Assembly: GCA_963920575.1 (NCBI GenBank)
Contig: OY986967.1
Coordinates: 21,903,648-21,967,647, forward strand
DNA length: 64,000 nucleotides
Direction: 5' to 3'
DNA from: Narthecium ossifragum
Taxonomy: Eukaryota > Streptophyta > Magnoliopsida > Dioscoreales > Nartheciaceae
Position numbers and translations under genes: made by a program. The notes below the pieces were generated by a model, which had not been told where the DNA came from, did no database searches, and worked only from the letters and a program-made list of their open reading frames with translations. The first letter of the stretch is position 1. Every line of letters starts with the position of its first letter. Positions 11,446 through 63,660 of the stretch are shown here, piece after piece.

Positions 11446-11874
11446 GGATCGATCCAGAACATTTGGATCGATCCAGGAATATTTTGGATCGATCCCAAAG
11501 CAGTTTGGATCGATCCAAAACCCTTTTCCAAAGAGCCAAACTCTCTGTCATACATTGGATCGATCCAAACCCTTAATGGATCGATCCAAAATCTCTCTCC
11601 AGAGAGCCATGATTCTCTGTTACATATTGGATAGATCCGGATCTGTAATGGATTGATCCATAATCCTTTTCCAGAGAGTCATGATTCTCTGTTACACATT
11701 GGATCGATCCATATCTTTAATATATCGATCCAGAAGCCCTTTCCAAAGAACCATGATTTTCTTCTACATCTTGGATCGATCCAGACCCATATTGGATCGA
11801 TCCAAGCCGTTAGAAACCCAGATTTTGACATCTTGGATCGATCCAAACATATTTTGGATCGATCCAAGATCGGC
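11446..11874 (+). repeat. Palindrome array TTGGATCGATCCAA in S1
   Basis: About fourteen copies of TTGGATCGATCCAA, mostly as doublets 20-30 bp apart, separated by about 45-bp spacers containing CCAGAGAGCCATGATTCTC. It ends roughly 50 bp upstream of the TATA box. A few copies have decayed (TTGGATAGATCC, ATATCGATCC). Confidence 0.88.
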
Positions 11875-12338
11875 GGACGGGTAAAAACAGACGGCTCTGA
11901 TCTGATCCGCGGGTCCACGACTTGGGGCCTATAAATAGAGGTTTTGGTTCTTATTTTGGGATCTTTTCTCCACTCTTTTTCCCTCCTTTCTCCAGCCTTC
12001 TTCCCCCTTAGAGTGAGAGAGAGATTTAGGGCATCAAGGGTTAGATTTTGATGGTGAAGATGGGTAAAACCTCCTCCTCCATGGATCTCCTACCGAAGAT
12101 GAGTAACTAAATCCCTTCTCCTTGGGAATTTCATGATGTCTTAGGGTTTTCTCTTAGATTTCTCTTTTGATTCTTGATGTAATGACTCTTGTGAGATGGT
12201 TTTTGTATAAATTCTCATGTAATTCTATATTTCTTCAATGAATTCCTTTATTGAATAGTTGAATCCCTCGTTTTACATGGAAGTGCTTGAGAATAAGATG
12301 ATGCTTACTAGATGTTTGATTTAATTCCTCAAAGAAGA

Positions 12339-12588
12339 GGCTATGCTAGAACCATAGCCAACTCTAGGGGATGAATCCTTGATCTAGGGATAGGATCTTG
12401 AGGTGCTAGAACCACCCCAAGCCAAAGCTATCCTACCCACTATTCTTGACTTAGATGAGGGATGGGATTGAGGTATTAAACCCATCTCAATCCAATACCT
12501 TTATCCATACAAAGCCTTAATCCTTTGCCAACGATATGACCTTAGTCCGGCAATCGTTGAGCTATGATCGAATTAGAACCTTGATCAT
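12339..12588 (+). other. Hairpin cluster in S1 leader (CTAGAAC loops)
   Basis: Four hairpins. GGCTATG, loop CTAGAAC, CATAGCC at 12339-12359 (7/7 pairs). CTTGAGGTG, CTAGAAC, CACCCCAAG at 12397-12421 (8/9). GGATTGAG...CTCAATCC around ATTAAACC near 12465-12493. ATGATC...GATCAT around ATTAGAACC at 12564-12588. All lie downstream of the TATA box and in transcript sense. Confidence 0.75.
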
Positions 12589-13929
12589 GGATCTTTACCT
12601 TGTTATGCACACGATGAGATGATCCTAACCCGACATCTTATTAGCGGCGAGCGATGTTAATCCTACGCTCGTCGATATCAAATTTAGACGATCTCTTGAG
12701 TGTCATGCATCTTGATTCATAGAGATAATACTTAGACCCTAATTCGGATTAGAATTCCCCAGGAATTATTCCTTGATAAATTTCCTCTTTAGTTCTTTTA
12801 GAATACTTTCGTTAGAAAACTCAAATCATCAATCTAATTGTTTCCACCTATCGTAGAGATTATATCACGTTTACTAATTCGACCATCCAATTCCTTGCGG
12901 ATTCGACCCATACTCTCATTAACTACGTTGTAGTTAATTAGTAGTCCGGTAATTTGTTTTGTCCGCCTTTGATTTAATTAACGATACATTTCAAGGCGCA
13001 TCAATGACCGCCCACTCCTTGGCCAACAACCACAATGTGCAAAGCCAACAACCAGTCTGATACTGGTCATGGCCATTCTGAAAGACGTTGCGGCGCAAAA
13101 TATCATCGATCAACCAAAGTGAAGGCGGCAGCTCCGCCCACGTAAATTTTCCCTTGCCCGTGCGATCCGGGTGGAGGATGAGATGAGCAACGGAGTCCTG
13201 ACTGTACAACTCCGTGGGCCGGAGCTTGTGAAGACCGGGGCAGCGCGACGGAACTATCAAAACCTCGCAGATAGCCTTGGCCGTCAAGGTAACCTCGACC
13301 CCATCAATTATGAACACGAAGCTATGGGAGAGGTGTGATCCCTCGACAGCGTCGTCCCGATCATCCCCGTAGGCAATGGCTGTCATGTTCTGGTAGAACA
13401 TGCAAACCAGCCTAGGGTAGATCGTGGTCTCATGTGTGTACAAAGGCAGGAGACCACGGTTCTCAAGGATCACCATTGACTCCTGGGCATGCTCGACAGT
13501 CCGAAAATAGGCAACATCAAATGTGTATTCAAGGTTTACGTCCCGCTGCCAATTTGGATGGAGACCTCGGACGACCGTGGGCGCAGTGGAAGGCCGGGCA
13601 CTCTTCTTCAGCTTCTTGGATTTGCAAAGGTTGGATGAAGAAGGTGCAATTGGAGCCTTCCTCTTAGATGTTGCCGGAGCCGTGGAAGATGAAGCCGGAG
13701 CTCGGGTGGATGATGTGGACGGTGCTCTCGTAGTCCTGACTGGTCGGGTCGAAGAAGCTGGAGGGACACAAGCTTGTGGGGGAGGTGGCGTAGACGAGGC
13801 TTGCCTGGTCGGATGTCCTGGAGGCCGTGCGGGAGGATCGGAGGAAGGCACAACCTGTGGCGTGGAAGAGGAAGCGGCCTTGCCCTTCTCGGCGGCCGCT
13901 TTGGTGGTTGCGGTCGGCTTGCGGCCCAT

Positions 13930-17044: not shown

Positions 17045-18598
17045 TGATAACGCGTGAAAAGTGCACAAATCACCCTTTTAACTAGGTCCTGTTAGTCTCC
17101 GAGCAATGCTATTTTGATTTTATTTTTCCCATTTCAGGCTTAAGGACCCTCAGCGAAGATTAGATCAAGTTTGGTGCTAAAACGAACAAATAAAGAACCT
17201 GCGAAGTCAAAGGAGCAAAGGTGGGCCATCTTTGAAGATTAAACTGTACCTGTTTAGGAAGAACCAGATGATGTACTATATATGGTTGGAAAGCTCTTGA
17301 AGTCTAAATTTTAGAACTTTTTACGGTTCGTGATTTGGAGTTTCGTAGAGGAAGATATGCTATTTTTAGTACAGAGGTGCAGAAGAAGCAGTTACGAAAA
17401 ATAAAGGGCTGAGATCTAATCCGAGTTAGGGTTTGATTAAGGCCTATAAATAGACCTTGTGAGAGGATTTTTGGCAGCCACCCATAGGCGAATTTTCCTC
17501 TCCTCCTGGGTATTTCCTTGTTCTTCTTCCTCCATAAACATTAGGGTTAGGTCTTGAAGATAGATCCATGGCGGGAGCGCGTCATCAACCTTCCCCGATG
17601 GATCGTTTCTTCAAGATGAGTAGCTAAATCTTTGTTCTAGGAAATTCTATGATGTAATAGGGAGTTTATTTCGGTTTTCCTATGGATCTGAGCATGTAAT
17701 TTATGATGGTTTAATGGATTAAATTCGGATTTTATATATCTATTGGTAATAGTTCTTATGGTGAATGTTTTGTTTGCTCTTTGTGCCCTAATTTCGGTCT
17801 GTCTTATCTCGGTTTTTCCGTAGGTATACAGCTGGATTTTGTGAAAACTCAAAACATAAAAGTTGTAGATCTCTGTCTTAGCTTTCCAACGAATCTTGAA
17901 TCGCCTCGTTTCGAGTTCTAATGTGAAAGTTACGCTGAGATTACGCTCGCTGGTTTTGAGCATTGCATGTTAGAGGCTAGGATTAGGACTTGTTCAAGTT
18001 GCTTTCATGCTAGAACCATGTTAGATCTTTGGATTGGATTCTAAACCCTAGCTTATGATTGTAGGAGTGCTAGAACCACTACCTTAATGCTAGAACCATT
18101 AAGACCTATGATTGTAACCTACAATGCATTCTTTATCTTTGTTGATTAGGCGATCTCAAAGTGCTAGAACCACTTTGATTATTTTCCTACCAATCATCCG
18201 CTGAATTGATCTTCATGCCGACGTAGGCTTCTAATGAATCTATGTTGAGTGATAGTGGACCTAGCCGATCTTCTATCAACCTTAGAAAATCATCTTGAAC
18301 TTATTGAATTGCTCTTGTCCTAGGAATGCCTAGATAGCTCTCGATTACGGATTAGAACTTCCTAGCTTTTTCTCTATTGTTATTCTCCCAATTTAGTTTA
18401 AAAGACCAACTATCATCTATCTTCCTTAACTTTTGATTTAGAACTATGCACGGTAATTAGGCTTAATCCTGTTTTCCCTGTGGACCGACTCGGACTTGCT
18501 ACTATCTACCCATAAAGTAGTTAGTTAATAGTTTGATCATTATAAATTTGTAATTTTGGCGTTCTTGCTAAGGTAACGACACTTTTCAAGGCGTGTCA
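17045..18598 (+). repeat. Solo gypsy LTR with perfect TAAAT target duplication
   Basis: TGATAACGCGTG to AGGCGTGTCA, 1554 bp, flanked by TAAAT at 17040-17044 and 18599-18603. It has the GGAAAGCTCTTGAAG block (17289-17303) and TATA box CCTATAAATAGACC (17449-17462) but no palindrome array. Four CTAGAAC hairpins lie in its leader. The minus-strand frame 17637-17963 is not a gene. Confidence 0.92.
18006..18176 (+). other. Four CTAGAAC hairpins in the solo LTR leader
   Basis: CATG/CATG (18006-18020), AGTG/CACT (18066-18080), CTTAATG/CATTAAG (about 18083-18103) and TCAAAGTG/CACTTTGA (about 18156-18178) each flank exactly CTAGAAC. The stems differ in sequence and every one pairs fully. This is the clearest cluster for covariation. 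Confidence 0.8.
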
Positions 18599-20919: not shown

Positions 20920-21461
20920 AAATTCTGATGGAACATGAAAAGTGTTGTGGCATAACGCGTCCGATCAAAATTACAAATTTATAATCAAACTCTCAACTAT
21001 CTACCTTTTGGGGTAGTTAGTGGTGAGTCGGAGTCGATCCGCAGGGAAGAAACTAGGATTGATGCAGAGTACTTAGCATGATCATCTACCAAGAAGTTGG
21101 ACGAAAAGATTTAGATTTGAATTTTTAACTAGCCTAGACCAAAATTAATGCAAAAAGGTACTAAGATATAAAGAGAGGCCGAGGAATCCTTAATCAATAA
21201 CAAGGGTTCTAATAGGTCTTCCTAAGACAAGGGCATGTCTCCTCAAATTGAATGGTTAAATCCAAATTGTCGATAGGCGAATGGCGAGTTCCACCTATCG
21301 CTCGACGAAGATCGGGTTAAGAACCCTCATCGGCGAAAGCAATCGTCTAAAGATCGGCGATCGAAGGATGAGTTGCGATCGCCGCTAACAAATCCTCTAA
21401 TTAAGACGGATTCGTCGCGAGAGAGCTAATGTGGTATGGATCTAGGTGTGATAGCGAGGTG

Positions 21462-21488
21462 GTTCTAGCACCTCGCTAGCCAAAAATC
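21462..21488 (-). other. CTAGAAC hairpin in E2 5' LTR
   Basis: TAGCGAGGTG, GTTCTAG, CACCTCGCTA on the plus strand: a perfect 10-bp stem, with the loop reading CTAGAAC in transcript sense. The second hairpin of this LTR was cut by S2 at 21547. Confidence 0.78.
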
Positions 21489-21714
21489 ACAATGATATGA
21501 TCGGTGGAGGGTTAGGAATAGATTGGTGGTGGTTTTAGCACCACAATTGATAAGTCACAAAATATACATAATTCACCCATTCAACTGAGCTTTGTTAGCT
21601 CTCAAGCAATGTATTTTTTAATATCTTTTCATATGGTTTCAGGTACAAGAGCTTTCGAAAAGAGTTGCATGGATTTCGAACCAAAAGACATCAGTAAAAC
21701 AGATACAGACAATT

Positions 21715-22125
21715 TGGATAGATCCAAGGTCATTTTGGATCGATCCAATTCATTTTGGATCGATCCCGATCCTTTTCCAGAAGGCCATAGTTTTTATTCA
21801 AAGTTGGATCGATCCGGATTCTTAATGGATCGATCCAAATATCTCTTCCTAGAGAGATCGGTACAAAATGGATCGATCCAAACCGTCATGGGATCGATCC
21901 ATATTTCCTTTACCAAGAGTACTTATTCTTGGGTACAAAATGGATCGATCCAAAACGTCATGGGATCGATCCATATTTCTTTTTCCAGGAACACTTATTC
22001 TTGGGTACAAAATGGATCGATCCAAATTTGACTGGGATCGATCCATATTTCCTTTCACAGAAAGGTATGATCTTTTGCTCATATTGGATCGATCCAATAT
22101 TACTGTGGATCGATCCAAGATCGCT
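21715..22125 (+). repeat. Palindrome array in S2
   Basis: About fourteen TTGGATCGATCCAA-type palindromes in doublets, upstream of the TATA box. The spacers (CTTATTCTTGGGTACAAAATG) form an approximately 70-bp tandem unit repeated three times between 21855 and 22050. Frames read through it (21609-22270) are artefacts. Confidence 0.87.
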
Positions 22126-22608
22126 GACGGTTATAAATGGACGGCTCAGATCTAATCCGGGGGTCTACGACTTGGGGCCTATAAATAGGGGTTTTGGCTC
22201 TAATTTGGGGATCTTCTTTTCTCTCTGGTTCCCTCTCTTGACAGCCTTCTTCCCTCCTCTATATTCTTGAGTTTTCTCATCCAATTCCCAAGGATTTAGG
22301 GCTCGAAAGGTGGAGATCAATGAAGAAGATGGATGAAACCTCTCTTCCTATGAATCATCCAACCAAGATGAGTAACTAAAATCCTCATCCTTGGAAATTC
22401 TATGATGTCTTAGGTGTTATTTTTAGATTTCTCTTGTAATCTTTGATGTAATAACGTTTGTGAGATGGAATCTTTGTATGAATTCGGATTTAATTCCTTA
22501 TTTCTTCAATAAAGTCTACTCTTGAATGGTTTGAGTATCTATATTTGCATTTAATTGCTCGAGTATTAGATGCATGCTAGGTGTTTGATGGAATCCCTCA
22601 AAGAGTAG

Positions 22609-22842
22609 GTCATGTTAGAACCATGGCTAACTCTTGACCTTAGGATAGGATGTTGAGGTGCTAGAACCACTTCAAGCTAAAGCTATCCTACTTACCATTC
22701 TTGACTTAGATGGAGGATTGGATTGAGGTATTAAATCCACCTCAATCTAAGACCTTAGTCATACAAAGCCTTGATTCCTTGCCAACAATAGGACCTTAAG
22801 ACGGCATTTGTTGAGCTATGATCGGATTAAATCCTCGATCAT
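22609..22842 (+). other. Hairpin cluster in S2 leader
   Basis: CATG around TTAGAAC at about 22611-22625; TTGAGGTG/CACTTCAA around CTAGAAC at 22653-22675; GATTGAGGT/ACCTCAATC around ATTAAATCC at 22721-22747 (9/9 pairs); ATGATCG/CGATCAT at 22818-22842 (7/7). Same order as in S1. Confidence 0.72.
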
Positions 22843-23785
22843 GGATTTTCACCTTATAATTCACACGATGAGATGATTCTAACCCGACGTCTCATTAGCA
22901 ACGAGTGATACTAATCCTACGCTCGTTGATCCCTAATTTCGACTATCTCATTTAAATGTTATTCATCTTGATTCATAGAGAAAATATTTAGACCTAATTC
23001 GGATTAGAATTCCCTAGGACTTCTTCCTTGATAAATCTCTTAGCGTTAAAGTGCTTCTAGAATACTTTAGTTTAAACAACTTTAAATCAATCAAATTGTT
23101 TCCAACTATTGTAGAGATTATATTGAATCCATTAATTTGACCATCTAATTCTCCGAGGACTCGACCCGTACTCCCACTAACTACATTGTAGTTAGCTATT
23201 AGTCCGGTAAATAGTTTTGTCCGTCTTTGATATACTTAACGACATATTTCAAGGCGAGTCAACAATCTAGTCCAATCTTGGATTAGAATCCTTCGTCATG
23301 AGAGAATCCATGATTTTAGCATGAATCCCTCTCACGAGAGGTTCCATCCAAGCCCTAGCATGCAAGAGACCTAGATCTAGGGCACAATAGGGCAATCCAA
23401 GCATTCATCAATGAAAATAACACCAAATTCATATAGAAATTAACTCCAATCCATACAACCATTCAATAGAGTAGCAAAAGCCCTAAATCCTAATAATCCC
23501 TAATAGAAACCCTTATTACATCATAAGAATCCCTAAGCTAAGAGTTAGTGACTCATTTTGGGGGTTTGATCCATAGATGGATGTTGATGAAGCTCTCCTC
23601 CCATGGATCTCCTTCATAAAGTCCTCTTCTAAATTGGGTAAGAGGAATCTAAAAGAAGAAAAGCTGGAAAAAAAAAGTCTAAGAGAAGATCCCCAAAATT
23701 CCCCAAAAAGGGTCTATTTATAGTAAACAAGCCTCCCAAACTCGGATTAGATCTGGGCCATTGATTCTGCTCGGCTGGCACATAA

Positions 23786-25565: not shown

Positions 25566-26926
25566 AGTCCTCACATGATGTTCCATATATCATTGGAAAG
25601 CTCTTGAAGTCTACTTTCTGGTGAATTTTACGGTTCATGATTCCGAGTTACGTAGAGGAAGTTACAATATTTTTAGTACCAGTGCGCAGTGCTAAGTGAA
25701 TAGTGACGGTCGACCGTCGCGCTCAAAAATCCTCACGGTCAACCGTCAAATCCTCACGGTCGACCGTCAAATCCTCACGGTCAACCGTCAAATCCTCACG
25801 GTCGACCGTCGAGCTCAAAAATCCTCACGATCAACCGTAAGATGCTCACGGTCGACCGTGGCATCGACCGTCAGCCTCTGTCAAGGAAAATACTTCGCAG
25901 GGTCGATGCGAAAATCGACCGCAGCTTGTCAAAATAAATTGTGCACCTCACTGTCGACCGTCAGGGTCTCACGGTCGACCAGCAGATCAGCCAGGGGCGT
26001 ATAACGGGTTTAAACTTAACCCGAGTTTGCTAATTTTTGGACCCTATAAATAGGAAAGTTAGGGTAAGTCAAGGGGAACTTCTTCGACGTTTTTGAAGGC
26101 TCTTTCGGGACGTTTCTGAAAGGTAGAAGATGAAGACATCTCCATCCATGGCCGAGTAATCCGCGGGCATGGCGGACGGATGATCTAGCGAGGATTAGGG
26201 TTTCTTCTTCATCATGGTTCATAGTTTTAACCTTTATTGTTAAACTCTTTTCTATGTATTGGATCTTCAAAGATTATTTTAAGATTATAGATTTCTATGT
26301 GAATGATTGATATTATGAATCTAGTCATGCTTCTTTCATGATCTTATAATCCCATAGTTTTATCTATTGTTTACCTACTTTATCTCGTGAAATCTTTCAT
26401 ATGGATTGCCGATTGTGAGAGTTGGTATTGTGTATTCTTAGATATCCGGTTAAATAGAGTTAGGGCTTTGTCCCTATGAACTTTTGTTGCGCGTTGCCTG
26501 TAGTGACAGCCGATATCGTGTATTCTTAGGTTTGGGTTGGATGAAGTTAGAACTATAATAAGGAAGAATCAATTGTAGGGAGAGACATTTATATATTTTG
26601 TTAGGTTTATAGTTCCATTTCTTCCGGTTAAGGTGATTGGGATGTGAATCCCTTAACTGATTATATGAACCATTGAGAAGAGAAGAACCTAAATCCGAGT
26701 GAAGTGATTCCTGAAGCCTAGCCTTATCAAAATCCTGATTTCTTTCGTTAACTTTATCTTATCATTACATCTTTGATCTACTTTCTTAACTTTTACGTTC
26801 TTGATTGTTTTCGATACATTGTTATCTGTGTTTATGAATTTTTCCTGCTTGTTTCTCTGTGGGTTCGACTTCTCTTATGTTGTACTGCACCGCGACCGCT
26901 GTGTATGACACATTTGAGCGACATCA
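25566..26926 (+). repeat. E3-family LTR, truncated at its 5' end
   Basis: Matches 8980-10445: the GGAAAGCTCTTGAAG block (25590-25604), CGGTCGACCGT array (25705-25990), TATA box CCCTATAAATAGG (26043-26055), two ~88-bp leader units, and the same end GAGCGACATCA. The first ~200 bases are missing. Confidence 0.87.
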
Positions 26927-36289: not shown

Positions 36290-36585
36290 GGGAGTTAAAA
36301 AGATAAAAATGGAGTTAGAAAGATAAACGGAGTTAAAAGGATAAAATGTAGGGAAGATAAAAATAGAGCTAAAAAAAATAAAATTGCAGGAAAGATACAA
36401 TTGCATTTAAAAAGATAAAAACGGAGTTAAAAAAGATAAAAATGGAGATAAAAAGATAAAAGTAGAGTTAAAAAGATGAAAATACTGAAAAGATAAAAAT
36501 GCATTTAAAATGATAAAATAGGGTTTAAAAGATAAAATTGGAGTTAAAAAAGATAAAATAAAGATGAAATTTGAGTTAAAGGTGA
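36290..36585. repeat. AGATAAAAATGGAGTTAAAA minisatellite, block 1
   Basis: Irregular 17-20-base units, strand-biased (A-rich on plus). Confidence 0.8.
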
Positions 36586-36879
36586 ATGGTGGTGGTTTCA
36601 AGGTGTGGGGTACGTGGCTGGAGTGGTGAACGGCGCCGGCGATGGCGGCTCGCGATTGAGCTGATGGCGAGCCGGGACTTGGCTTGCTTTTGGCTTGGGG
36701 CGAGCTGGACCAAACCGAGGGTGGAGAGAGGAAGAGGAGAGCGAAAAGTCAAGAAAAATAGGGAAAATAGGGGGAAATATGGGAAAAGATGGAGAGAATT
36801 ATAGAAGAAAAGTAGAGGTGATTGAAGAGACCATTGACGGAGAATCTCAGCCAATTGAGTATTAAGTTGTGATTTGCGG

Positions 36880-37180
36880 AGTTAAAAAGATAAAAATGGA
36901 GTTAAAATGATAAAATGCAGGAAAGATAAAAATAGAGTTAAAAAAATAAAAATGCAGGAAAGATAAAGATGTATTTAAAAAGATAAAAACAGAGCTAAAA
37001 AGATAAAAAATATATGAAAGATAAAAATGGAGTTAAAAAGAAAAAAGTGGAGTTAAAAAAAATGAAAATACGAAAAAGATAAAAATGCTTTTAAAACGAT
37101 AAAAATGGGGTTTAAAAGATAAAATTAGAGTTAAAAAAGATAAAATTAGAGTTAAAAAAAGATAAAATTGGAGTTAAAGG
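36880..37180. repeat. Same minisatellite, block 2
   Basis: Same unit family, inside the next ~590-bp tandem unit. Confidence 0.8.
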
Positions 37181-37510: not shown

Positions 37511-37895
37511 AACCAGCCATTGCTGACTGTTGGTATGACGGAGGTTATATGATGTGCTTATGTAGAAATTTGCCCCAAAGAAAATGACATTAGGTCTACT
37601 TCTTAATGTGTAATTCTATAATAACGTCGACCTCAGGGATGGAAATGTTATTATAGATTATTACAGTTTACACCAAATCTAGTAAACTTTTTTACTGATA
37701 CACCACCATAGAGTGTTTTAATGTATAAACACCATTTTAAAGCAGTTATGGACAGTAATAATTAATTATACATTTTTTATGACTTTTTTGACCTTATGAT
37801 GAATCAAACCCCAATCTCTTCTCTTATTTCCGTCCTTATACCCTCGAGTTTTCTCCCCCTCATTCTCACTCTCATATCATCTCCCTCCCTCTCAT
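37511..37895. other. No gene recognised
   Basis: AT-rich spacer ahead of the CT-rich repeat. Confidence 0.35.
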
Positions 37896-38120
37896 ATCAC
37901 TCCCTCTCCCCAAGGCTCTCTCCCCTTCACCCTCCCTCTCATTTCCATCACTCTCCCCGAGGGTCTCTCCCCCTCCCCATCCCTCTCCCCGAGGTCCCTC
38001 TCCCCTAGGTTCTCTCCCCCTCCCCATCCCTCCCCCTCCCCATCCCTCTCCCCCAGGTCCCTCTCCCCCAGGTTCTCTCCCCTCTCCATCCCTCTCCCCG
38101 AGGTTCTCTCCCCTCATTCC
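37896..38120. repeat. CT-rich tandem repeat
   Basis: Units of CCCTCTCCCC(C/G)AGGT and TCTCTCCCCCTCCCCAT alternate about eight times. It lies just upstream of the exon at 38224. Gly-rich minus-strand frames across it are artefacts. Confidence 0.8.
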
Positions 38121-40635: not shown

Positions 40636-41098
40636 ATTCCACTTTGAAAAGGATAAAAATGGAGTTAAAAAGATAAATGGAGTTAAAAGGATAAAATGTA
40701 GGAAAGATAAAAATAGAGTTAAAAAAATAAAAATGCAGGAAAGATAAAAATGCATTTAAAAAGATAAAAATATAGGAAAGATAAAAATGGGGTTAGAAAG
40801 ATAAAAGTGGAGTTAAAAAAATGAAAATACTGAAAAGATAAAAATGCATTTAAAACGCTAAAAATGGGGTTAAAAAGATAAAATTGGAGTTAAAAATATA
40901 AAAGTGGAGTTAAAAAGATGAAAATGCCGGAAATATAAAAATACATTTAAAAAGATAAAAGTAGAGTTAAAAATATAAAAGTGTAGTTAAAAAGATAAAC
41001 ATGGAGTCAAAAAGAAGGAAAGGTAAAAATGGAGTTAAAAAGATAAAATGGAGGAAAGATGAAAATGCATGAAAGATAAAAATGGAATAACGGTAAAA
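40636..41098. repeat. AGATAAAAATGGAGTTAAAA minisatellite, block 3
   Basis: Same unit family as 36290-36585 and 36880-37180, 4 kb away, with at least 20 units. Confidence 0.8.
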
Positions 41099-42270
41099 TG
41101 GGCTCAATTTTAGGTCATCAAAATTTCAAATTTTATGTATAATTTTTTAATTTTGGAAAGTCAAAATTTCAAATTTTATGTTTAATTTTGGATCATCAAT
41201 TTTTTCAAATTTGATGTACAGTTTTCATGCGTAAATTGTATTTTGATCAAAAAATTTCGCGGCTCTAGGTCTCGGCTCAGATCTGGGTTCATCAGCTTAA
41301 TCAGATCTGATTTGGATTCATGCTGGATGAAGGTGTCTGGATCAGATTCGATTTGATCGGACCAGACTGCTTGGCCTAGTGGAACCAATTCAAACCCAAT
41401 CTAGTCAGACCCAACCAGCTCAAGGAGAGCCGCTCGCGGGGGACAATGACCGCAAGCAAGGGCGGATGGCGTAACAACGGATCACGCGTGGGAATGGTGC
41501 ACAATGGACCGTGAGGTGACAAGACCACCGGATATGGGGTTGGACGGCTATGGAAGGGCGTTGGGTGGTAGGTTTAGGTGGAGGCGTTGCCGGATCAGAG
41601 AGAGAGGAGAAACTCGGGTGAGGCTTCCGGCGAGGAGGCGATCAGACGACGTCGGGCGTCATCGGGGAAGGCAGAGACGATGAAAGGTTGCTGGTTCTGG
41701 AGGAGATGGAGGGACGAGTGACGGCGGCTGAGCTCGGGGTTGATGCCGCAGGGAACTGGGAGGTCGTCGCTAGTGTAGAGGACCTCGGGGAGGTTTAGAC
41801 GGTGGCGTTGGAAGGTGGCGGTCCCAACGAGATCGTCGGAGTTAATGGATGGGACGGGGTTGCTGGTCGTGGTGGAATAAAGGTGGTGGTGGGAAGAGGC
41901 GGAGCTCGGATTGGGTTTGGATGGAGGAGTTGGTCGGAGGTGGGAAAGGGGAAGGAGGTGGAGGGGTTCGCGGGGATTCTGAGGGGTGGTGGCAGCGATT
42001 GTAGGTGGAGCAATGGCGGAGACAAGGTGTGCCGGGGAAGATAAGTCGTGAGCCAACTGGCTGGAGGAGAGAGGTGAGTGAAAAGGGTGAGGAAAAGAAA
42101 GAAAAAAAAATAGAAAGGGTATTTTGGTCTATTTTGATCTAATTTGGGCTTATTAATCTAAAAAAATTGAGTATGGGATTTTTGACCAAGAGCATGGGGT
42201 TTTGGACAAAAATGAGGGCAAGATTTGGGGTTTTGGATCATGGCCATTGATAAAAAGCCTTTCTATACCT
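41099..42270. other. GC-rich block, no gene called
   Basis: A minus-strand frame (41595-42056) reads Pro/Ser-rich sequence without a recognisable domain. It follows the minisatellite as the GC-rich blocks do at 35600-37500. Near 42190-42250, aaaaccccaaatc-like sequence (minus) resembles 35495-35530 and may be a degenerate terminal repeat. Confidence 0.35.
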
Positions 42271-48872: not shown

Positions 48873-51425
48873 ATTACTCCAACATCGAGTACGGTATGCA
48901 TAAATGTGGAAAATGACTTGCATGAGGCTGCACGATGCAATGATGCAAATATGGCGAGAGACGCATTGCTACTGGGAGATCGCCTATTGATCTGTGCACC
49001 AAGCAAAGCTGGTGAATCTCCACTCTACTTGGCTATTGTTGCAGGGTCCTATCGTGTGGTGGACGTGCTGCTGAACTATTTGGTTGAACAACAAATGCAT
49101 TCCAATACTTTTGGAGCAGCCTATGCAGGTCCTGGAGGGAAGACAGCCTTGCATGCCGCCGTCCTCGATAAAAAAAGTATATGTCATGCACTTTGGTATT
49201 GTTTTTGTCTTTATGATATGCTTTTCAAAGACTTACTCGATGGTGTGAATCTTGTCTTTAGTTTTTAGTTTTTCTTCATGTCTTAGGCTCTTAGCCTTTG
49301 CTTGCTTAACTCATCGGAAAGAGAAAAGAAAAGACAATGAATGATATGCCAATTTATAATCATGATTCTACTATTTACAAATCTCATTTTTCAAGGAGTA
49401 CGTGTATAAACTATATTTTACTAGTGATTTAGTATGGTATCCGGGTGTTGAGTTTTCCAAGGAGTGTATAAAAACAATTCCTATTACTTTTCTGTTTCTA
49501 TAGTTAATTAGTTCAGCCTTTTTATTTTGGCTTAAGGGGCAACTGTCCTACATTTCCAATAAAAACCTATTCTTGAAAGAGAAAGGTTTTGCTTGACATG
49601 TTCCTCCTCTGGATAAGGATAATGTGGTCAAACGCTGCAAAATCTAAAATACAACACAAACCATATATAAAAGGGGAAACAAATGATAATCATGGATATA
49701 GGTGGTTCGGTTTATATTGCTATTTTTAGAAGCAAGCATAAATCTCTATGACAACGTACGTAGTATCGTGCTGTCAGATATCACCCAACGGTTATTGCAG
49801 TCAGAGAAAAGTCTCGCAAGAAGGGCAGATGACTCCGGAGACCTTCCCATCCATTATGCAGCATCTTACGGTGATTTAGATATGGTGAAGCTGCTCCTGA
49901 ATCATGACCAAGATACAGCGTCTATAAGAGATGGAAAGGGCTCTACGATATTACATATTGCAGCCGGCATGGGCTTTCCTAAAGTCATTAAGGAGGTCAT
50001 ACGAACTCGTCCTGAAATTACCGAAGATGTTGACTACCATGGGAAGAATTTTCTTCATGTTGCAGCCGAGAGTGGCAAGAATAATGTTCTCCAACTTGCC
50101 TGGGGAGTTCGGGTTTTCCATCTTCACTTCAAAGTTCCGAGGCTCAAAACACTTGTAAATAGGCAGGATTACGATGGGAATACACCATTGCATCTCGCCA
50201 TTAAAGAAGGATACTATAGTTGTATTATGTATCTCGTGCACAGGAAAGGAATACAGCTCAACATCACCAACAATGCTGGTCTTAAACCTCTTGATCTTTT
50301 ACGGAAGAGCATGAGATCCGATCCAATGTGGTGGGTATGTAACACAACTTTACTCTCTCTTTCTTTGAAACAGAGCATGCGACATGAGGGGAGTTTTCTT
50401 TCCCTCGTACCATTACTTCACTCATATTATCATACCAACGATTCATATTCGTTTGAATCTCATCCAACAGTTCAGTCCATCAACAAAATGCTGACTTGAA
50501 TTCAGATGTTAAAGATCCGAGTCATTGGATGAGATTTAGACATGTCTGAGCCGTTGCATGAAGTGCATTTAGCGGTTGTACTTAACACTTCACTCATGCT
50601 AACTGAAATTACTGATCAGTTACTCTAATGTCTAATCAATTTCGCGTGGACAATTAATTAATACAGGTAGTTGCCGCGGAATCCATGGCTTCTGCTGGAG
50701 CAATGTTCAGTCCCCAGAGGGGAGATCTTCCAGGAATGATGGAGGATGTAGATCCTGCCATTGCGGAGAACAGCAAGAAAATGTCGGATAATCTTCTACT
50801 GGTCTCAATGCTAATAGCCACCATCACCTTCGCCGCCGGTTTCAGAGTACCGGGAGGGTTCGGTTCCGATACTAGCAAGAGTCCAGGCGTGGCTGTTCTA
50901 GCGGATTCCCCTTATTTCTTTTTATTCCTAGTCACTGACACCTTCGCCGTGGTAGTCTCTATCTATGCATCCTTTCTGTTCATTATGGGCCAGCGAAATG
51001 AACGGATTAGGAGAGGCATCAACCTTTTGGTGACGTATCTCGTCCAGGTCACTATGCTTGCATGCATGTTTGCTTTCATTCTGGGAGTTACTGCATTCCT
51101 ACCAGCAGATAGTTTCGCTATTCGGCACACCCCACTGATCTCAACGGTCGCAGCCCTACTCTTCCTGCATTCATACGGGATGAATCGTGCCGTTAACGTA
51201 GTGGATGAGTTGAAAGCAACAAAAGTATTGATCGTAGCAGGATGTAAACGTTTGTTGAAGGCAGAGAGAGCACAAACGACGCAAGGCCTCAATCAGGCGT
51301 ACCTTTATCACACTGGCTTGAGACGGGATGTCCTTGTCTATGCTCAAGCATTTAGTTCTGTTGTGATTTTATTTATATGCATCGTACTTTATTACGCAGC
51401 TGGCGCGCATCTAATTTTCTTTTAG
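48873..51425 (+). CDS. Ankyrin-repeat protein with PGG membrane domain (ACD6-like), exons 2-4
   Basis: Exons 48873-49176, 49730-50334 and 50667-51425 join in frame (GT-AG, phases 0, 1, 0). With predicted exon 1 the product is about 594 residues, a little short of Arabidopsis ACD6. Ankyrin repeats: ENDLHEAARCND, AGESPLYLAIVAGSYRVV, GKTALHAAVLD (exon 2), then SGDLPIHYAASYGDL, GSTILHIAAGMG, GKNFLHVAAESG, GNTPLHLAIKEG (exon 3). Exon 4 carries the PGG domain (LIATITFAAGFRVPGGF) and four hydrophobic helices (LLLVSMLIATITFAAGF; FFLFLVTDTFAVVVSIY; VTMLACMFAFILGVTAF; SSVVILFICIVLYYAAG). Family members are membrane proteins in salicylic-acid defence and cell death. The downstream exons have no stop. 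Disrupted exon 1 and the lack of an N-terminal ankyrin block leave it doubtful whether a full protein is made. Confidence 0.85.
49177..49729 (+). other. Intron 2 of the ACD6-like gene
   Basis: Starts GTATATG and ends TATTTTTAG; AT-rich. No nested element is recognised. Confidence 0.7.
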
Positions 51426-54790: not shown

Positions 54791-55146
54791 GGTGGAGGCA
54801 CACCCTTGATCCAATTAATGGCTGGAAACCCCTGTCTTTTCTATTATGAAGAAGATGATGAATTACATGACTTCAACTTTTAAATACCCAAACCCTAATG
54901 ACTCAATGAACTAGACATCCTCCTAAATCACAGCCGTCCAATAGTCCGGCTGATCACTCCTAAGCCGTACGCCACAAGCAGCTGATAAGAAGTGAAAAGT
55001 GCATAAATCACCCTTTCAACTTAGCCTTGTTAGTCTCCGAGCAAGGCCTTACTGACGATTACTACCCTATGACAGGTACAAGAGCCCTCAATGAGGATTG
55101 GATCAAGTTCCGAGCTTAAACGAAGTCATTCGGGCCAGTTTTTATG

Positions 55147-55505
55147 AAGAAGATCGATCCTTTATTGAAGAAGGATCGATCCTTTGAAGTACATTAAGAA
55201 GAATCCAATCGGGACAACAAGGATCGATTCTCCATAAAGAGAAGATCGATCCCTTATGCGCATTTTTCAGCGACAGAGCGCAAGTTCTGAAGGATCGATC
55301 TCTTATGTGCATTTTCCAGTGACAGAGCGCAACATTCTCTAGGATCGATCTCCATCCACTATAGGATAGATCTTCATCGGGGCGCAGCCAGAACTCAAGA
55401 GCAAAGATCGATCCTTTCCTATAGGAGGATCGATCCTCCACGGGACCAGCGATCACACGGAAGAGGAAGATCGATCCTCTCCCTTACGAGGATCGATCCT
55501 TTTGT
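55147..55505 (+). repeat. Palindrome array GATCGATC in E4 U3
   Basis: About twelve copies of AAGATCGATC/GGATCGATCCTT, in doublets as in E2, ending about 55 bp upstream of the TATA box. Confidence 0.85.
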
Positions 55506-55933
55506 GCCAGCCGAGCAAAATCAATGGTCCAGATCTAATCCGAGGGGGGAGGCTTGTTTACTATAAATAGACCCCTTATGGGGGATTTTAGGGATCTTCT
55601 CTTAGTCCTTTCTCCAGCCTTTCTAGTTTCCTTACCCAATTGAGAGGAGGACTTCTTGGAGGAAATCCATGGGAGGAGAGCTTCATCAACCTCCATCCAT
55701 GGATCGATCCAAGATGAGTAGCTAACTTTCTTTCTCTTGGGATTTCCATGTAGTTGTAGGATTCTTTTGTAGTTTTCTTAGGGTTTTTGAGGTGTAATCT
55801 TTAGGGATGATCTATTGTATGGATTTGAGCATGATTTCTTTATCTTTGTACATGGATCTTTTATGTTGAATGGATGAATGCCCTTCTTTGGTATGAGCTA
55901 GAACTTGTGCATGATGGGTGTTTGTTGTTATGC

Positions 55934-56100
55934 CCCAATGAGTTGGATGTACTAGAAACACATCCAATTCCATTGGGAGGATAAATCGCCCTAGATTAGA
56001 GATTAGGGATGCTAGAACCATCCCTATCTCTAAATTAGAGGATCCATTCTATCTTTATCTTGCATTGGATTCGAGGTGCTAGAACCATCTCGATCCAATG
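55934..56100 (+). other. Three long CTAGAAC-type hairpins in E4 leader
   Basis: CCCAATG-AG-TTGGATGT, loop ACTAGAAAC, ACATCCAA-TTC-CATTGGG (about 55934-55978). TTAGAGATTAGGGATG, CTAGAAC, CATCCCTATCTCTAA (about 55996-56033; 15 pairs, one bulge). CATTGGATTCGAGGTG, CTAGAAC, CATCTCGATCCAATG (56063-56100; 15 pairs, one bulge, one wobble). These are the longest stems in the window. Confidence 0.82.
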
Positions 56101-56611
56101 CCCGACCCCATACAATACCTTTTCCTTGCGACGAATCGATCTTAATCGAAGGTTCGTCAGCGACGATAGAAGCTAATCACTCATTCGTCGACTTTGTGAA
56201 TGTGATTCTGTCCAATGGATGATTCTAACCCGACTTCCGTTGAGCGATAAGTGAGACTAACCACCCGCTTGTCGACTTCTTAATTTCGATCGTCCCAATT
56301 AGATTACACACATCAATTCCTTAGGATGCTACACTAGAACCTACAATGAAATGGAAGTCCCAAGGCCTCTCTATATTAGTTTTATTTCTCTATACTTAGT
56401 TAATTACTTCAATCATCATTAATCCAAAACCCAAATTATTTTAGCTAATTGTTTGGAGTTATCTATCGAGTACGGTAGTCAATTCTCATTTCCCTGTGGA
56501 TCGACCCGGACTCCCGCTAACTACGTAGTAGTTAGTTAGGATTCGGTATAAATTGTAATCTCGACGCCCTAGTCACTTTTAACGACGAGTGGTTTCGGCG
56601 CGTCAAGATTT

Positions 56612-56630
56612 TGGCGCCGTTGCCGGGGAC
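56612..56630 (+). other. E4 primer binding site
   Basis: TGGCGCCGTTGCCGGGGAC six bases after the LTR end; the Athila/Tat type, as in E2. Confidence 0.9.
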
Positions 56631-56866
56631 TTGTTGATTTGAATTTCTTACTTGATAAATTCCTTCTTTCAATTAGGTTGATTTACTTCCTTTTATTACA
56701 AAATACCAAAAATAGAACGTTGCTTATATTGTATATCTTTTTGTGTTTGTAGGTGAAGCTTCCGAGCGGCGAAGCGACTCATCTACGGGCGAAGATACAA
56801 AGTTCTTGGACCAGCCCACTGTAATGTATCTTTTACCTTGTATGGTCCAAGTTCTCATATGTGTGA

Positions 56867-58837
56867 ATGAGTATGCATGAGGATTCAGATCTAGATATCA
56901 CATTGCAAGAATTCTTAGATTCTAGGACATCTTCAAGCATACCCTTGCATAAGGACCTCCCGCTTCCTCAAGTCATGGATGAGCCCAACCCGGACCCCAA
57001 TCCTAATGTCAATCCTATCCCGGACCGTAGGAGTATGAAGGATTACTATGTCCCTTCTACATTTGCACCCACTTCGGGTATACAACAACCCATTGTTCAA
57101 GCCGCACACTACGAGTTTAAGCCTCAATTCCTTCAATTCCTTCCAAACTTTCACGGCTTGAGTAATGAGGACCCTTACTACCATCTAGAAGATTTTCTTG
57201 AAAAGAGTTCCACGGTCAAAATTCCAAATTTTAGTGAGGATGCAATGAGATTGAAATTGTTTCCATTCACCTTGAAGGGCAAAGCCAAGCATTGGTTAGG
57301 TTCCCTTGAGCCCCAAACGATCACCACATGGGACCAATTACAAAGTGCTTTTCTTGAAAAGTTCTACCCTATAGCAAAGACTCATGAAATGAGGACCCAA
57401 ATAGCAACCTTTCGTCAAGAAGATGACGAACCTTTTCATGATGTTTGGGATAGGTTTAAGGAACTTATTAGGAAATGCCCACACCATAAATTTCCTAAGT
57501 GGTCCCTCGTTGATTATTTCTACAATGGTCTTAGAATACGTCATCAACAAGACGTAGACACCGCTTGTGGTGGGGTGTTCATGACCAATCCATACGATGA
57601 CTCATGGGTTTTATTTGGAAAGCTTGCCATTAATTCCCAAAACCATGCCTTCACTTCAAGAAATGTTAGGGATACTTCAAGCCCTAAGGGACAATCCAAC
57701 TCTAGAGGAGTGTTAGAGTTATCCGAAGCCACCCGTGTTGCACAACAAATTGATACTCTAAGTAGAAAATTTGATCAAGTGCTTGCTCATTCTTTGAATC
57801 AAATTCCTACTCCTTCTTCATCGAGTTACCCACCTAATTCTCCATCATTGGGAGAACTTTGCTTCTTATGTTCGACTCCCGGTCACCTAGTTACCGAATG
57901 CCATTTGGCATGTGATTATCCGGAGCTCGTGCAAGAGCACATTAATGCGGTCTTTAATCAATCAAAGCCTACCTATGACCCTTACTCGAATACATACAAT
58001 CCCGGTCTTAGAGATCATCCAAATTTCTCATGGAAAAATCCCGGCCAACAACCTCCAAATTCATACAATTCTAGGCCTCCGATTGCGGGCAATCAAGCCC
58101 CAAGCTACCCTCCTAAGTACCAAGCGCCATATCATTCTAACCAACCTCCACAAAATCAAACCACCTACCGGCCACCTCAAGCCCCTCATGCATATCCATC
58201 TCAAGTGCCAAGTTATCCTCAATCATCTCATCTTCCAAATTGGAATCAAAGGCCACCTGGGCCTTCCTCATACCAAGCTCCCTATCAAGCCCATCAAGCC
58301 CCTCAAGCTCCGAAACGTGATCCTTGTATTGAGGAAAGGCTTCTCAAGGCTTTGGATTCTTTTGAGTCAAGTACCCAACTTTTGCATTCTCATTCCCAAT
58401 CCATTGCAAAGTTGGAAGTGCAAATAGGCCAATTGGCCAATACTATGGCAAGAAGGGAGGAGGGTAGACTTCCTAGTCAACCCATAGCAAACCCTAAAGG
58501 CCAACATTTTGTCGATTCCACTCACGAGGAAGTGCAAGCGGTCACTACCCTCCGAAGTAGAAAGATTTTTCCTAATGTTGAGATGGCCAAAGACACCACA
58601 TTAGGGCAAGGGCATGACCATCATTTGTCTACTTCAATGAATGACTCTCAAGCATCACCTCATCATGCCCCTCATGATTCTTCGAATCCATTACCACCTC
58701 TCAATGAAACTGAACCTATCTCACTCGATCCATTACCAACCAAAGCATACATTCCTAAGGCTCCATACCCTCAAGCACTAGTTGATCCTCAAGTCACATC
58801 CAACCTTGGAAGAGTGGCAAGTATGAGGAGATGCTAG
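56867..58837 (+). CDS. E4 Gag
   Basis: 656 residues from MSMHEDSDLDITLQEFLDS. The gag core runs about residues 85-240: AAHYEFKPQFLQFLPNFHGL, MRLKLFPFTLKGKAKHWLGS, FLEKFYPIAKTHEMRTQIAT and KCPHHKFPKW. A CCHC knuckle, CFLCSTPGHLVTEC, lies near residue 332. A long Pro/Gln/Tyr-rich region (370-480) and a basic tail follow. It forms the virus-like particle that packs element RNA in the cytoplasm. The frame ends at TAG 58835-58837, overlapping the pol frame by 7 bases (ATGCTAG); the family norm is one gag-pol frame, so a 1-base indel shortly upstream is likely. Confidence 0.93.
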   Translation: MSMHEDSDLDITLQEFLDSRTSSSIPLHKDLPLPQVMDEPNPDPNPNVNPIPDRRSMKDYYVPSTFAPTSGIQQPIVQAAHYEFKPQFLQFLPNFHGLSNEDPYYHLEDFLEKSSTVKIPNFSEDAMRLKLFPFTLKGKAKHWLGSLEPQTITTWDQLQSAFLEKFYPIAKTHEMRTQIATFRQEDDEPFHDVWDRFKELIRKCPHHKFPKWSLVDYFYNGLRIRHQQDVDTACGGVFMTNPYDDSWVLFGKLAINSQNHAFTSRNVRDTSSPKGQSNSRGVLELSEATRVAQQIDTLSRKFDQVLAHSLNQIPTPSSSSYPPNSPSLGELCFLCSTPGHLVTECHLACDYPELVQEHINAVFNQSKPTYDPYSNTYNPGLRDHPNFSWKNPGQQPPNSYNSRPPIAGNQAPSYPPKYQAPYHSNQPPQNQTTYRPPQAPHAYPSQVPSYPQSSHLPNWNQRPPGPSSYQAPYQAHQAPQAPKRDPCIEERLLKALDSFESSTQLLHSHSQSIAKLEVQIGQLANTMARREEGRLPSQPIANPKGQHFVDSTHEEVQAVTTLRSRKIFPNVEMAKDTTLGQGHDHHLSTSMNDSQASPHHAPHDSSNPLPPLNETEPISLDPLPTKAYIPKAPYPQALVDPQVTSNLGRVASMRRC

Positions 58838-61800
58838 AACTATTCAAGAAGGTCCACATCAACCTTCCCTTGTTGGACGCGATTAAGCAAGTGCCTTCTT
58901 ACGCCAAATTTTTGAAGGACTTGTGTACTCATAAGAGGCAATCCAAATCTCATGTCTCTAAAAAGCTCTTCCTAACTGAACAAGTTAGCTCTATTCTTCA
59001 ACTCGATCTACCTCCAAAATTAAGAGACCCCGGCACTCCTACTATTTCTTGCATCATAGGAGATCAATTGATTGAGGGGGCTCTTCTTGATTTAGGAGCT
59101 AGTGTGAATCTTATGCCATACTCCTTATTTTGTAAGTTTGGCTTAGGAGAGCTCAAGCCGACCTCGATGACGTTGCAATTGGCCGATAGATCTATCAAGA
59201 CACCACGGGGTGTTCTTGAAGATATATTAGTCAATGTCGATAGATGTGTTTTCCCGGTCGATTTCGTTGTACTTGACATGGAACCGGGTGTTAGACATAA
59301 GAAATCCATTCCCATCATACTTGGCCGACCTTTCTTGGCTACGGCCAATGCATGCATCAATTGTAGAAGTGGCATCATGACCGTTACCTTCGGGAATATG
59401 GAGTTGAAATTAAATATTTTTGATGCTACTAAACAATCTATGCATGGGAGTGAATGTTTTATGATCGATTCTTTGGTGGATGATGATATTGTTGATGAAT
59501 GTGCAAATGATGTGATGGTTGTGAATTTTGATATGGATGATGCTTGTGAATCATTTGTTGATGCTTGTGATGACTCTTTATCGAGTAGGGATGAGGTTTT
59601 GAATTTTGATGAGTTGCCGATTTGTGAAGAGGATTTTCCGGGTTTACGTGATGAAGTGTTGACTTTCAATGATTTTTCGATGGTTTTTAATGCGTTGCAA
59701 GATGCGGACTTACCCACTTCGGATTTACTCGATGAATTTGAACATGCTTGTGCCATGGCCTTTCGAAAAACTTCTTTTGAGCCATTGCCACCTATATCCT
59801 CCACACCGGCACCCCCATCTTTGATTAAGCCTCCAACCTTAGAGTTGAAACCCTTGCCATCCAATTTGAAATATGAATATCTTGGGCCAAATTGCTCCCT
59901 CCCGGTAATTATCTCTTCATCCTTGACTCTTGCACAAGAGGGAAAACTCATTAAGGTGCTCACCAAGCACAAGAGGGTCATTGGGTGGTCCATTGCCGAC
60001 CTCAAGAGAATAGACCCATCTATATGCATGCATCGCATACATTTAGAAGATGAGTCTAAGAGTGTCATAGAGTTTCAACGTCGATTGAACCCAAACATGA
60101 GGGAAGTTGTGTTGAAGGAGGTTTTTAAACTCCTTGAGGCGGGCGTCATTTTCCCTATCTCGGACTCCAAATGGGTGAGTCCAACCCAAGTAGTGCCCAA
60201 GAAATCGGGCATTACCGTGATTAAGAATGAGAGGAGAGAAAGCATTGCTACTCGCCAAACTACGGGATTGCGAGTATGTATTGATTACCGGAAGTTGAAT
60301 TCATTCACTAGAAAAGACCATTTTCCACTTCCTTTCATCGACCAAATTTTGGAGAGACTTGTCGGGCAAAGTTTCTATTGTTTCCTTGATGGCTACTCCG
60401 GATATAACCAAGTGGCAATTGATCCTAAGGACCAAGAGAAAACGACATTTACTTGTCCTTTTGGTACTTTCGCCTACCGTCGTATGCCCTTTGGTCTTTG
60501 TAATGCACCGGCAACGTTTCAACGTTGCATGTTAGCCATCTTTGGAGACATGATCGAACACTTTCTAGAGATCTTCGTGGATGATTTTTCAGTCTTTGGC
60601 CAATCTTTTGACTCTTGCCTTGAGAATCTTACTAAAGTCTTAGCTAGGTGTGAGGAAACAAACCTAGTCTTGAGTTGGGAGAAGAGTCATTTTATGGTAA
60701 ATGAGGGGATTGTATTGGGCCATGTTGTTTCAAGTAGGGGGATCGAAGTTGATAAGGCCAAACTTGAGCTCATCTCTAAACTTCCTCCTCCATCATCGGT
60801 TCGACAAATCCGATCTTTTCTTGGGCATGCGGGTTTCTATCGTCGCTTCATCAAGGATTTTAGCAAAATTTCTCGTCCCCTTTGTGCCTTACTTGCTAAA
60901 GATGTTTCTTTCAACTTTGATGACCTTACATGCATGCCTATACTACTCTTCGCGAGGCCTTGTCTTCCGCACCCATTGTGCACGCACCCGACTATTCACT
61001 TCCGTTTGAAATCATGTGTGACGCCTCGGATTATGCCGTGGGCGCCGTTTTCGGTCAACGGATGGACAAACTCCCTCACGTCATATGCTACGCTAGCAAA
61101 ACCTTAAATGATGCTCAAGTCAACTACACGACTACTGAGAAAGAGTTGCTAGCGGTAGTCTTTTCCTTGGAGAAATTTCGATCCTACCTCCTTGGTTCCA
61201 AAATCATTATCTTTACCGATCATGCCACTTTGCGGTATTTGTTTTCCAAGAAGGATGCCAAGCCACGCTTACTCCGATGGATCTTGCTTCTCCAAGAGTT
61301 CAATCTTGAATTTAAGGATAAAAAGGGCTCCTCTAATGTTGTAGCAGATCATCTCTCTAGGCTATCGTCCGAGCACATCTTAGACTCTATTCCAATCAAT
61401 GAGTTGTTCCCAGATGAGCATCTTTTGGCCATCGATCAATTTCCCAAGCCGTGGTTTGCTCATATTGTCAATTATCTCACCACCGGGCAAATTCCACTCT
61501 TTTGGTCCAAAAATGATCAAAACAAATTCTTCTCACATATCAAGAACTATTTTTGGCATGATCCATACTTGCTCAAACGATGCCCGGACCAATTGTTGAG
61601 AAGATGTGTTCCCGAATCGGAAGTTACGTCCATCATCACTCATTGTGATTCTCATCCTTGTGGTGGACATTTCTCCGGTAGGAAGACCACCGCAAAGATC
61701 TTTGAATGCGGCTTCTATTGGCCCACCATATTCTGTGATTCGCATAATTTTGTCAAAGCTTGCCTCCGGTGTCAACAAGTTGGCACAATTTCTAGACGAA

Positions 61801-63075: not shown

Positions 63076-63660
63076 CAGTTTGGTATATAAAAGATCGATC
63101 TTCCAAGCGGAGAGGATCGATCCTTTATGTCCGATTGAATATAAGCTGGAACCTGGGGACGAAGGATCGATCCTTATCTACCTCAAGATCGATCTCTTTT
63201 GCGAATTTATTCGTGACAGGAGGATGGTTTTGAGGTGATCGATCCTTCTCTACCTCAAGATCGATCTCTTTTGCGAATTTATTCGTGACAGGGGGATGGT
63301 TTTGAGGTGATCGATCCTTCCCTACCTAAAGATCGATCTCTTTTGCGAATTTATTCGTGACAGGGGGATGGTTTTGAGGTAATCGATCCTTCTCTACCTC
63401 AAGATCGATCTCTTTTGCGAATTTATTCGTGACAGGGGGATGGTTTTGAGGTGATCGATCCTTCACTACCTAAAGATCGATCTTACTCACTTGGACACGT
63501 TGGCACGACTTAAGTTTGAACCGTTATGATGCCGCCACGTGGCCAAAGATCGATCTTCCTCTTGAGGAAGATCGATCCTTGGCTGGGTTTTGAAAAAAAA
63601 ATATAACCCTAGCTGGATCGACTTAGGGCTCTCAAGCCCTAAGATCGATCCCCCTTTCCC
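63076..63660 (+). repeat. E4 internal palindrome block with four 72-bp tandem units
   Basis: Units from CTCAAGATCGATCTC to GATCGATCCTTCTCTAC, 72 bp each, starting at about 63181, 63253, 63325 and 63397, almost identical. Each has two GATCGATC sites. Further sites lie at 63090-63180 and 63545-63655. The same palindrome fills the U3 array of this element. Confidence 0.85.

Follow-up and report, generated by a model that had tools for sequence, protein, structure and literature searches.

In retroviruses, the psi and DIS elements of the RNA leader direct genome packaging and dimerization, and in plant pararetroviruses the leader is laid out as one large hairpin close to a short upstream ORF (uORF). 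The genomic RNAs of retroviruses, Ty1 and Ty3 are structured near the 5′ end, where they provide contact sites for Gag or for other RNA (PMC4974528, in part). The AxxA packaging signals of STNV-1 consist of several short stem-loops with a common loop motif in a variable structural context, and data in the same paper argue against a role for AxxA in vivo (PMC6475782, in part). Among plant LTR retrotransposons, Sireviruses carry conserved palindromic repeats (PMC2829016, in part), and conserved dimerization and packaging signals are mentioned for the barley copia element BARE (PMC3735527, in part). A recent review of the life cycle of these elements, in its passages on packaging and RNA structure, does not name a defined packaging structure in the RNA of plant gypsy elements (PMC12786077).

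The LTR leaders described here, from Narthecium ossifragum, share something with each of these systems. Like psi/DIS and the PAL structures of Ty1 and Ty3, they are structured leaders of reverse-transcribing elements (PMC4974528, in part); unlike them, they display an array of hairpins in which a single near-invariant seven-base loop is carried on freely varying stems, and they are known from sequence alone. AxxA is short and degenerate, whereas here the loop is 7 nt long and the hairpins are supported by covariation (PMC6475782, in part). The palindromes of Sireviruses, which are Ty1/copia elements, lie upstream of the TATA box and mostly have a CGG-CCG core; our arrays have neither property: they follow the TATA box and combine a fixed loop with stems that change (PMC2829016, in part). 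BARE belongs to another superfamily, and the accessible text describes no common-loop hairpin array for it (PMC3735527). Plant pararetroviruses offer a long, structured shunt leader with a short uORF (PMC5902531, in part); here, in contrast, several small hairpins share a loop and stand some 180 nt away from the uORF. The sequence-only reading that drew attention to these hairpins knew of no description of the motif, and we have found none. Scans against Rfam of the whole window at the gathering cut-off and of E4 positions 55560–56660 at E values up to 5 gave no match at the hairpins, so a known Rfam family is rejected. PMC open-access text yielded no account of the motif; CTAGAACCA and 'retrotransposon' occur together in three papers there, none of which, judging by its title, concerns it. 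Subscription papers fall mostly outside that scope, and novelty is provisional. With its covariation and its near-invariant loop, this array, present in thousands of copies, is a concrete RNA target with which to ask what protein or RNA reads it; it also raises the questions of how related elements distinguish their genomes, and whether such elements in other plants use the same signal.

The window—the whole 64,000-nucleotide stretch of DNA analyzed—contains several LTRs with these arrays. The element we call E4 has a 5′ LTR (TG…CA) at 54983–56605 on the plus strand, followed at 56612 by a primer-binding site, TGGCGCCGTTGCCGGGG, which we take to be of the tRNA-Asp type. Its gene order by Pfam is gag–protease–RT–RNaseH–integrase, that of gypsy elements, with a protease match that barely exceeds the cut-off. 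The named relatives of its gag are mostly plant proteins, and a search of IMG/VR found no relative of the pol ORF; an exact search with a 15-base core gave 34 matches, all single, and none with a second core. E4 is probably an Athila-like gypsy element, and E2 (minus strand), S1 (plus), S2 and the solo LTR at 17045 are related gypsy LTRs, probably Athila-like too, the lineage name being presumed from the primer-binding site. S2 is a solo LTR (21548–23261, plus) nested in an E2 LTR in the opposite orientation and flanked by the 5-bp target duplication ACAAT; the 17045 solo LTR (17045–18598, plus) has the duplication TAAAT. These had been described as four gypsy LTR families, but their leaders are homologous: 31 leaders of this kind (L047 was left out) align with pairwise identities of at least 40% and a mean of 56%. 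An Rfam snoR71 match lies antisense inside the E4 gag ORF (57386–57492, minus; 42.9 bits, E 2.4e-05).

All the hairpins that the sequence-only reading had placed in E4, E2, S1/S2 and the 17045 LTR were found where it put them, and the sequences that it quoted are present; two of its loop assignments need correction, and it missed one homologous hairpin in E2. E4, on the plus strand, has a weak hairpin, HP1 (55891–55910, CTAGAAC at 55898), followed by HP2 (55934–55977), HP3 (55989–56036, CTAGAAC at 56012–56018) and HP4 (56063–56101, CTAGAAC at 56079–56085). The loop of HP2 had been given as CTAGAAC and is in fact ACTAGAAAC. Folding of 55925–56110 yields three long hairpins at −73.6 kcal/mol; shuffled sequences average −41.8 (z = −7.3). 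A covariance model built from HP2 finds E4 HP2 (55938–55973, E = 1.9e-08) and, in the sense orientation, E4 HP3 (55998–56032, E = 4.9e-06) and HP4 (56065–56100, E = 5.3e-04). On the minus strand, E2 has HP2 at 5311–5346 (loop CTAAAAT, E = 2.3e-10), HP3 at 5249–5284 (CTAGAAC, E = 0.05) and HP4 at 5184–5210 (TAGCGAGGTG-CTAGAAC-CACATCGCTA, with one mismatch). The second E2 LTR copy, also minus, has HP4 at 21452–21478 with its 10-bp stem intact, HP3 at 21518–21551 (CTAAAAC, E = 0.039) and HP2 at 23298–23333, the first and last of these also matching the model; HP2 is the one overlooked, in both copies.

S1 and S2, both plus and both in the training set of the model, match it at HP2: GGCTATG-CTAGAAC-CATAGCC at 12332–12367 in S1 (E = 3.3e-12), and a TTAGAAC loop at 22601–22636 in S2 (E = 9.1e-10). 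HP3 follows at 12397–12421 in S1 (CTTGAGGTG-CTAGAAC-CACCCCAAG, one mismatch) and at 22647–22682 in S2 (CTAGAAC, E = 0.0054). S1 continues with HP4 (12465–12493) and an additional hairpin with loop ATTAGAACC (12562–12590). At HP4, where E4 and E2 carry CTAGAAC, the loop reads ATTAAACCC in S1 and ATTAAATCC in S2, not CTAGAAC as had been thought. The 17045 array (18006–18185, plus) has CTAGAAC at 18010, 18070, 18090 and 18164, with model matches in sense at E values of 0.0018 to 0.15. The claim that each stem still pairs has exceptions: at 5194 in E2, TAGCGAGGTG and CACATCGCTA mismatch, and in the 17045 LTR perfect pairing extends over no more than 4 bp at two CTAGAAC sites out of four. In antisense the model gives two matches, which mirror strong hairpins, and outside these leaders two weak ones, at 26315–26350 (minus, E 0.71) and 58823–58853 (plus, E 1.2).

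Upstream of the arrays lies a conserved uORF of 18–19 codons that ends AAG ATG AGT NNC TAA. It occupies 55669–55725 in E4 (plus; 18 codons, NN = AG), 5558–5617 in E2 (minus), 12051–12110 in S1, 22320–22379 in S2 and 17568–17627 in the 17045 LTR (all plus), and an in-frame ATG 45–48 nt upstream is kept in 32 of 35 LTR pieces. If its penultimate codon is AGC or AAC, all three frames meet a stop within the final twelve bases. Further upstream again is a TATA box, TATAAATA, read from the sequence at 55562–55569 (plus) in E4. The claim that all copies of the hairpin lie downstream of TATA agrees with what we see, in that the exact TATAAATA occurs upstream of the hairpins in 31 of 38 LTR pieces and is absent from seven. 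The distance from TATAAATA to ATGAGT is 152–188 nt in 29 of 35 pieces and 886 nt in one; five have no exact TATAAATA. Repeats that contain the palindrome GATCGATC, with 72-bp and other periods, fill 11443–11805, 21702–22117 and 55141–55510, upstream of TATA boxes, and 63165–63566 too.

Exact patterns were counted over one genome of 379 Mb. The hairpin core RTGCTAGAACCAY has 8,195 copies (4,197 + 3,998 on the two strands) versus 23 (10 + 13) for the reversed pattern, and the uORF-end motif AAGATGAGTNNCTAA has 6,488 (3,219 + 3,269) versus 13 (4 + 9) for its control. The first 100 core matches listed, all on one contig (C1), fall into 42 clusters, each holding one to four motifs on a single strand, and 81 of the 100 motifs lie 234–550 nt downstream of a same-strand uORF end. 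Viewed from the uORF, this part of C1 has 45 ends, 31 of them with a same-strand motif downstream at 234–550 nt, and within 700 nt of these ends there is one motif on the opposite strand. The loop does therefore read in transcript sense, as had been proposed. The hairpins are ordered, and lie about 180–550 nt downstream of the uORF. In the 32 of 37 leaders with an exact uORF end, loop distances from it are nearly constant, at about 182, 237, 298 and 366 nt (E4, E2, L005, L025 and L031 types).

CTAGAAC occurs 18 times in the window versus 6.3 expected. Eight of the 18 lie in a stem of at least 6 bp, compared with 0.38% for all heptamers, and when arms are swapped among the 18 sites, at most six stems form in 10,000 trials. 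Among the 490 heptaloop hairpins with stems of at least 6 bp in the window, both strands taken together, CTAGAAC ranks first among the loops with 8, and GTTCTAG, its mirror image, has 7. The same is seen in leaders chosen without regard to the loop, at 20 consecutive uORF places (L085–L104). CTAGAAC is present in 17 of the 20, and has a stem of at least 6 bp at 17 of 31 distinct places; CTAGTCC does so at 4 of 5, CTAGGAC at 4 of 5 and TTAGAAC at 4 of 8, and words other than these four main forms at 34 of 8,447. One of the leaders, L086, has the word and no 6-bp stem. In line with the strand bias, none of the 20 has GTTCTAG between +150 and +620, though it occurs at about +678 in three. Word count, arm swapping and the scan of these leaders together reject chance as the origin of the CTAGAAC hairpins.

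Fixing the stem and leaving the loop free avoids selection by loop. GAGGTG-N7-CACCTC has 243 sites in the genome versus 55 for its control, and among the matches listed the loop is CTAGAAC in 28 of 50, with 13 of the other 22 no more than two letters away; GGGATG-N7-CATCCC has 508 sites versus 4, and the loop is CTAGAAC in 43 of 50 of the matches listed (hand tallies, both). The 32 leaders with an exact uORF end, mostly motif-selected, furnished 19 distinct hairpins of at least 8 bp, loop unspecified. Each loop position is identical in 17–19 of the 19, positions 5–7 being as conserved as 1–4. Neighboring regions gave 34 hairpins, with no loop occurring more than twice.

In a second set of 20 uORF-selected leaders, L105–L124, the first 12 were chosen as lacking the exact motif (they are 12 of the 14 motif-lacking uORF places in that stretch of C1), and the last eight mainly for variety. 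Of the 40 leaders in the two sets, 12 of them pre-chosen in this way, 13 lack both the word CTAGAAC and any heptaloop hairpin of the form CTAGNNC (L099, L106–L109, L111, L112, L117–L121 and L123). All of these but L099 were seen to have the same uORF end (NN = GG, TG, GA or AA), and L117, L118 and L121 have in common another hairpin, of 9 bp, at +140 (GTTGAGGGA/TTCCTCGAC).

The sequence-only reading took variable stems around a fixed loop as a mark of selection on RNA structure, and within this one genome we agree: homologous HP2 and HP4 hairpins covary, on the sense strand and downstream of TATA. When 114 CTAGAAC sites from the window and from 32 loci on C1, which the motif had picked out of the 42 listed clusters, are collapsed into 35 clusters, stem positions 3–9 form 150 pairs, versus 103 with swapped arms (maximum 125 in 2,000), and position 4 shows all four Watson–Crick pairs. 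Arm swapping is blind to class-specific relics, and homologous hairpins were therefore compared. The alignments were hand-chosen and trimmed, with 14 rows for HP2 (E4 is absent from it) and 13 for HP4. In HP2, 90.2% of cells are paired, with 22 two-sided changes, and the covariation score is 0.587, against 0.276 shuffled and at most 0.199 when partners are slid; in HP4, 89.4% are paired, with 10 two-sided changes and a score of 0.345, against 0.194 shuffled and at most 0.179 slid. In neither case did any of 500 shuffles match the paired cells, the changed cells or the covariation score, and slid partners pair in 20–46% (HP2) and 26–44% (HP4) of cells. Two of the five measures stay within the shuffles: the number of pairs with a two-sided change is as high in 128 of the 500 shuffles of HP2 and in 17 of those of HP4, and that of further pair types in 36 and 127, respectively. 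With 15, 13 and 14 representatives of HP2, HP3 and HP4, chosen and trimmed by hand, in-register pairing is 77/90, 64/78 and 77/84, and slid pairing peaks at 41%, 51% and 43%. HP3 has family-specific outer arms, GGTTAG/CTAACC, GGCTAG/CTAGCC and GGATAG/CTATCC; RNAalifold misaligned this outer helix in three E4-type rows.

Counted over homologous pairs in 10 leaders, there are 553 two-sided changes versus 338 expected by a test of independence, although the cells are not themselves independent. A blind test of all pairs in 18 leaders, with a tree-based null for the placement of substitutions, found no pair with E < 0.05 (lowest 0.9), so that the proposed check for covariation succeeds at homologous HP2 and HP4 and gives nothing significant in this form. 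G–U versus A–C mismatches, an indicator of which strand folds, number 15 versus 2 in HP2, favoring the sense strand, 5 versus 7 in HP4 and 29 versus 23 over all sites. That the leader hairpins are RNA structures under selection is well supported. A conserved structure thus sits in what would be the leader of the genomic RNA, if transcription starts at the TATA box.

The loop consensus is CUAGAAC, relaxed to YUARAHC, and the stem is usually closed by UG/CA; these closing pairs are invariant in HP2, and in HP4 the innermost G–C is missing in 4 of 13. Base 2 of the loop is U and base 4 a purine, and by likeness to tRNA loops a U-turn or tRNA-like loop is a candidate form. Nine leaders of one subfamily (L100, L103, L105, L110, L113–L116 and L124) have CTAGTCC in HP2 and also in HP3a or HP3b or both—CTAG is retained as AA is swapped for TC—with CTAGCCC at HP3a in L115 and L116 and CTAGTCA in L113. 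Their HP4, where intact, keeps CTAAACC. A related leader, L048, has CTAGTCC at HP2 and CTAGAAC at HP3a and HP3b, where the stem differs too, by a matched A–T/G–C change, and L088–L090 mix CTAGGAC with CTAGAAC. That loops inside one element tend to match while their arms differ suggests one shared partner, though the joint change may have been a single event in one lineage.

How might such an array work? RNA transcribed from the TATA box would carry some two to five hairpins in its leader, each displaying nearly the same seven bases on a stem whose outer pairs may vary provided that pairing holds. The loops could then jointly offer a single partner several places to bind. If the partner is the element's own Gag, it would select the full-length RNA for packaging, perhaps as a pair, before reverse transcription, and the shared shift of loops within one subfamily would fit a partner that changes along with its element. 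This multivalent recognition by Gag, proposed by analogy, is the reading that we tentatively favor, with a confidence that stops just short of halfway. A bolder version, which we consider unlikely, makes the loop a family-specific address code: each Gag would read its own, the loops switching together from CTAGAAC to CTAGTCC with the preference of Gag, and related families in one genome would thereby keep their RNAs apart during packaging. The main rival to recognition by Gag borrows from the retroviral dimer initiation site. Self-complementary CUAG would pair two genomic RNAs in kissing loops, through several weak sites per leader, and it is true that CTAG is constant in CTAGAAC, CTAGTCC, CTAGGAC and CTAGCCC, and that the HP4 loops of S1, S2 and L037 hold TTAA, whose RNA form UUAA is self-complementary also. 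We consider this unlikely, however. Loop positions 5–7 are no less conserved than 1–4, homologous sites carry CTAAAAT, CTAAACC and CTATAAC, whose CTAA and CTAT are not self-complementary, and four pairs would make a short contact. Since the closing pairs are conserved and so is every one of the seven loop bases, recognition of the whole loop is favored over a four-base CUAG contact alone.

Other roles would leave Gag out. Translation control is still a candidate because the leader has a uORF and, in E4, 29 AUGs lie between the estimated start and the ATG that comes first in the gag ORF; the uORF might stop ribosomes and the array steer shunting or re-initiation past the many AUGs to gag, in the manner of plant pararetroviruses, or binding of a partner might silence the RNA. 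The abundance of AAGATGAGTNNCTAA, 6,488 copies against 13, and its near-fixed spacing to the array fit such a scheme, which we nevertheless rate as decidedly unlikely: the hairpins begin about 180 nt past the uORF end, a shunt would have no need of an invariant loop, and the three codon positions of the uORF, at 415/428/433, show no third-base excess (in a hand alignment that is doubtful for several rows). A host RNA-binding protein might instead read the array as a nuclear export or stability element, by analogy with the RTE and MTE of mouse elements (described in PMC12786077, in part). A near-identical loop in leaders whose identity falls to 40% would suit an unchanging partner of this kind, but a subfamily in which two to three loops have turned to CTAGTCC would be unexpected, and we think the idea improbable. 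Finally, the hairpins might have no function as RNA at all; they might be palindromes at the DNA level, whether regulatory sites or cruciforms, or else old inverted-repeat relics in neutral decay. Stem scores of 4 or less at 32 of 86 motif sites, the overall 29 to 23 of G–U to A–C, and the blind test's lowest E of 0.9 lean that way; the changes that match on both sides of homologous stems, expected neither of a DNA site that stays fixed nor of a relic decaying neutrally, and the single orientation and single place in the LTR, lean so far the other way that we give it hardly any credence. A neutral palindrome relic is rejected as the full account, since homologous stems pair in register with two-sided changes.

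Elsewhere in the window, ORFs with ankyrin repeats and a PGG domain at 49702–51425 probably represent a host gene. Purine-rich tandem arrays of AAAAAGATAAAAATGGAGTT units, at 36291–37178 and 40645–41101, flank a C-rich repeat block at 37853–38115.
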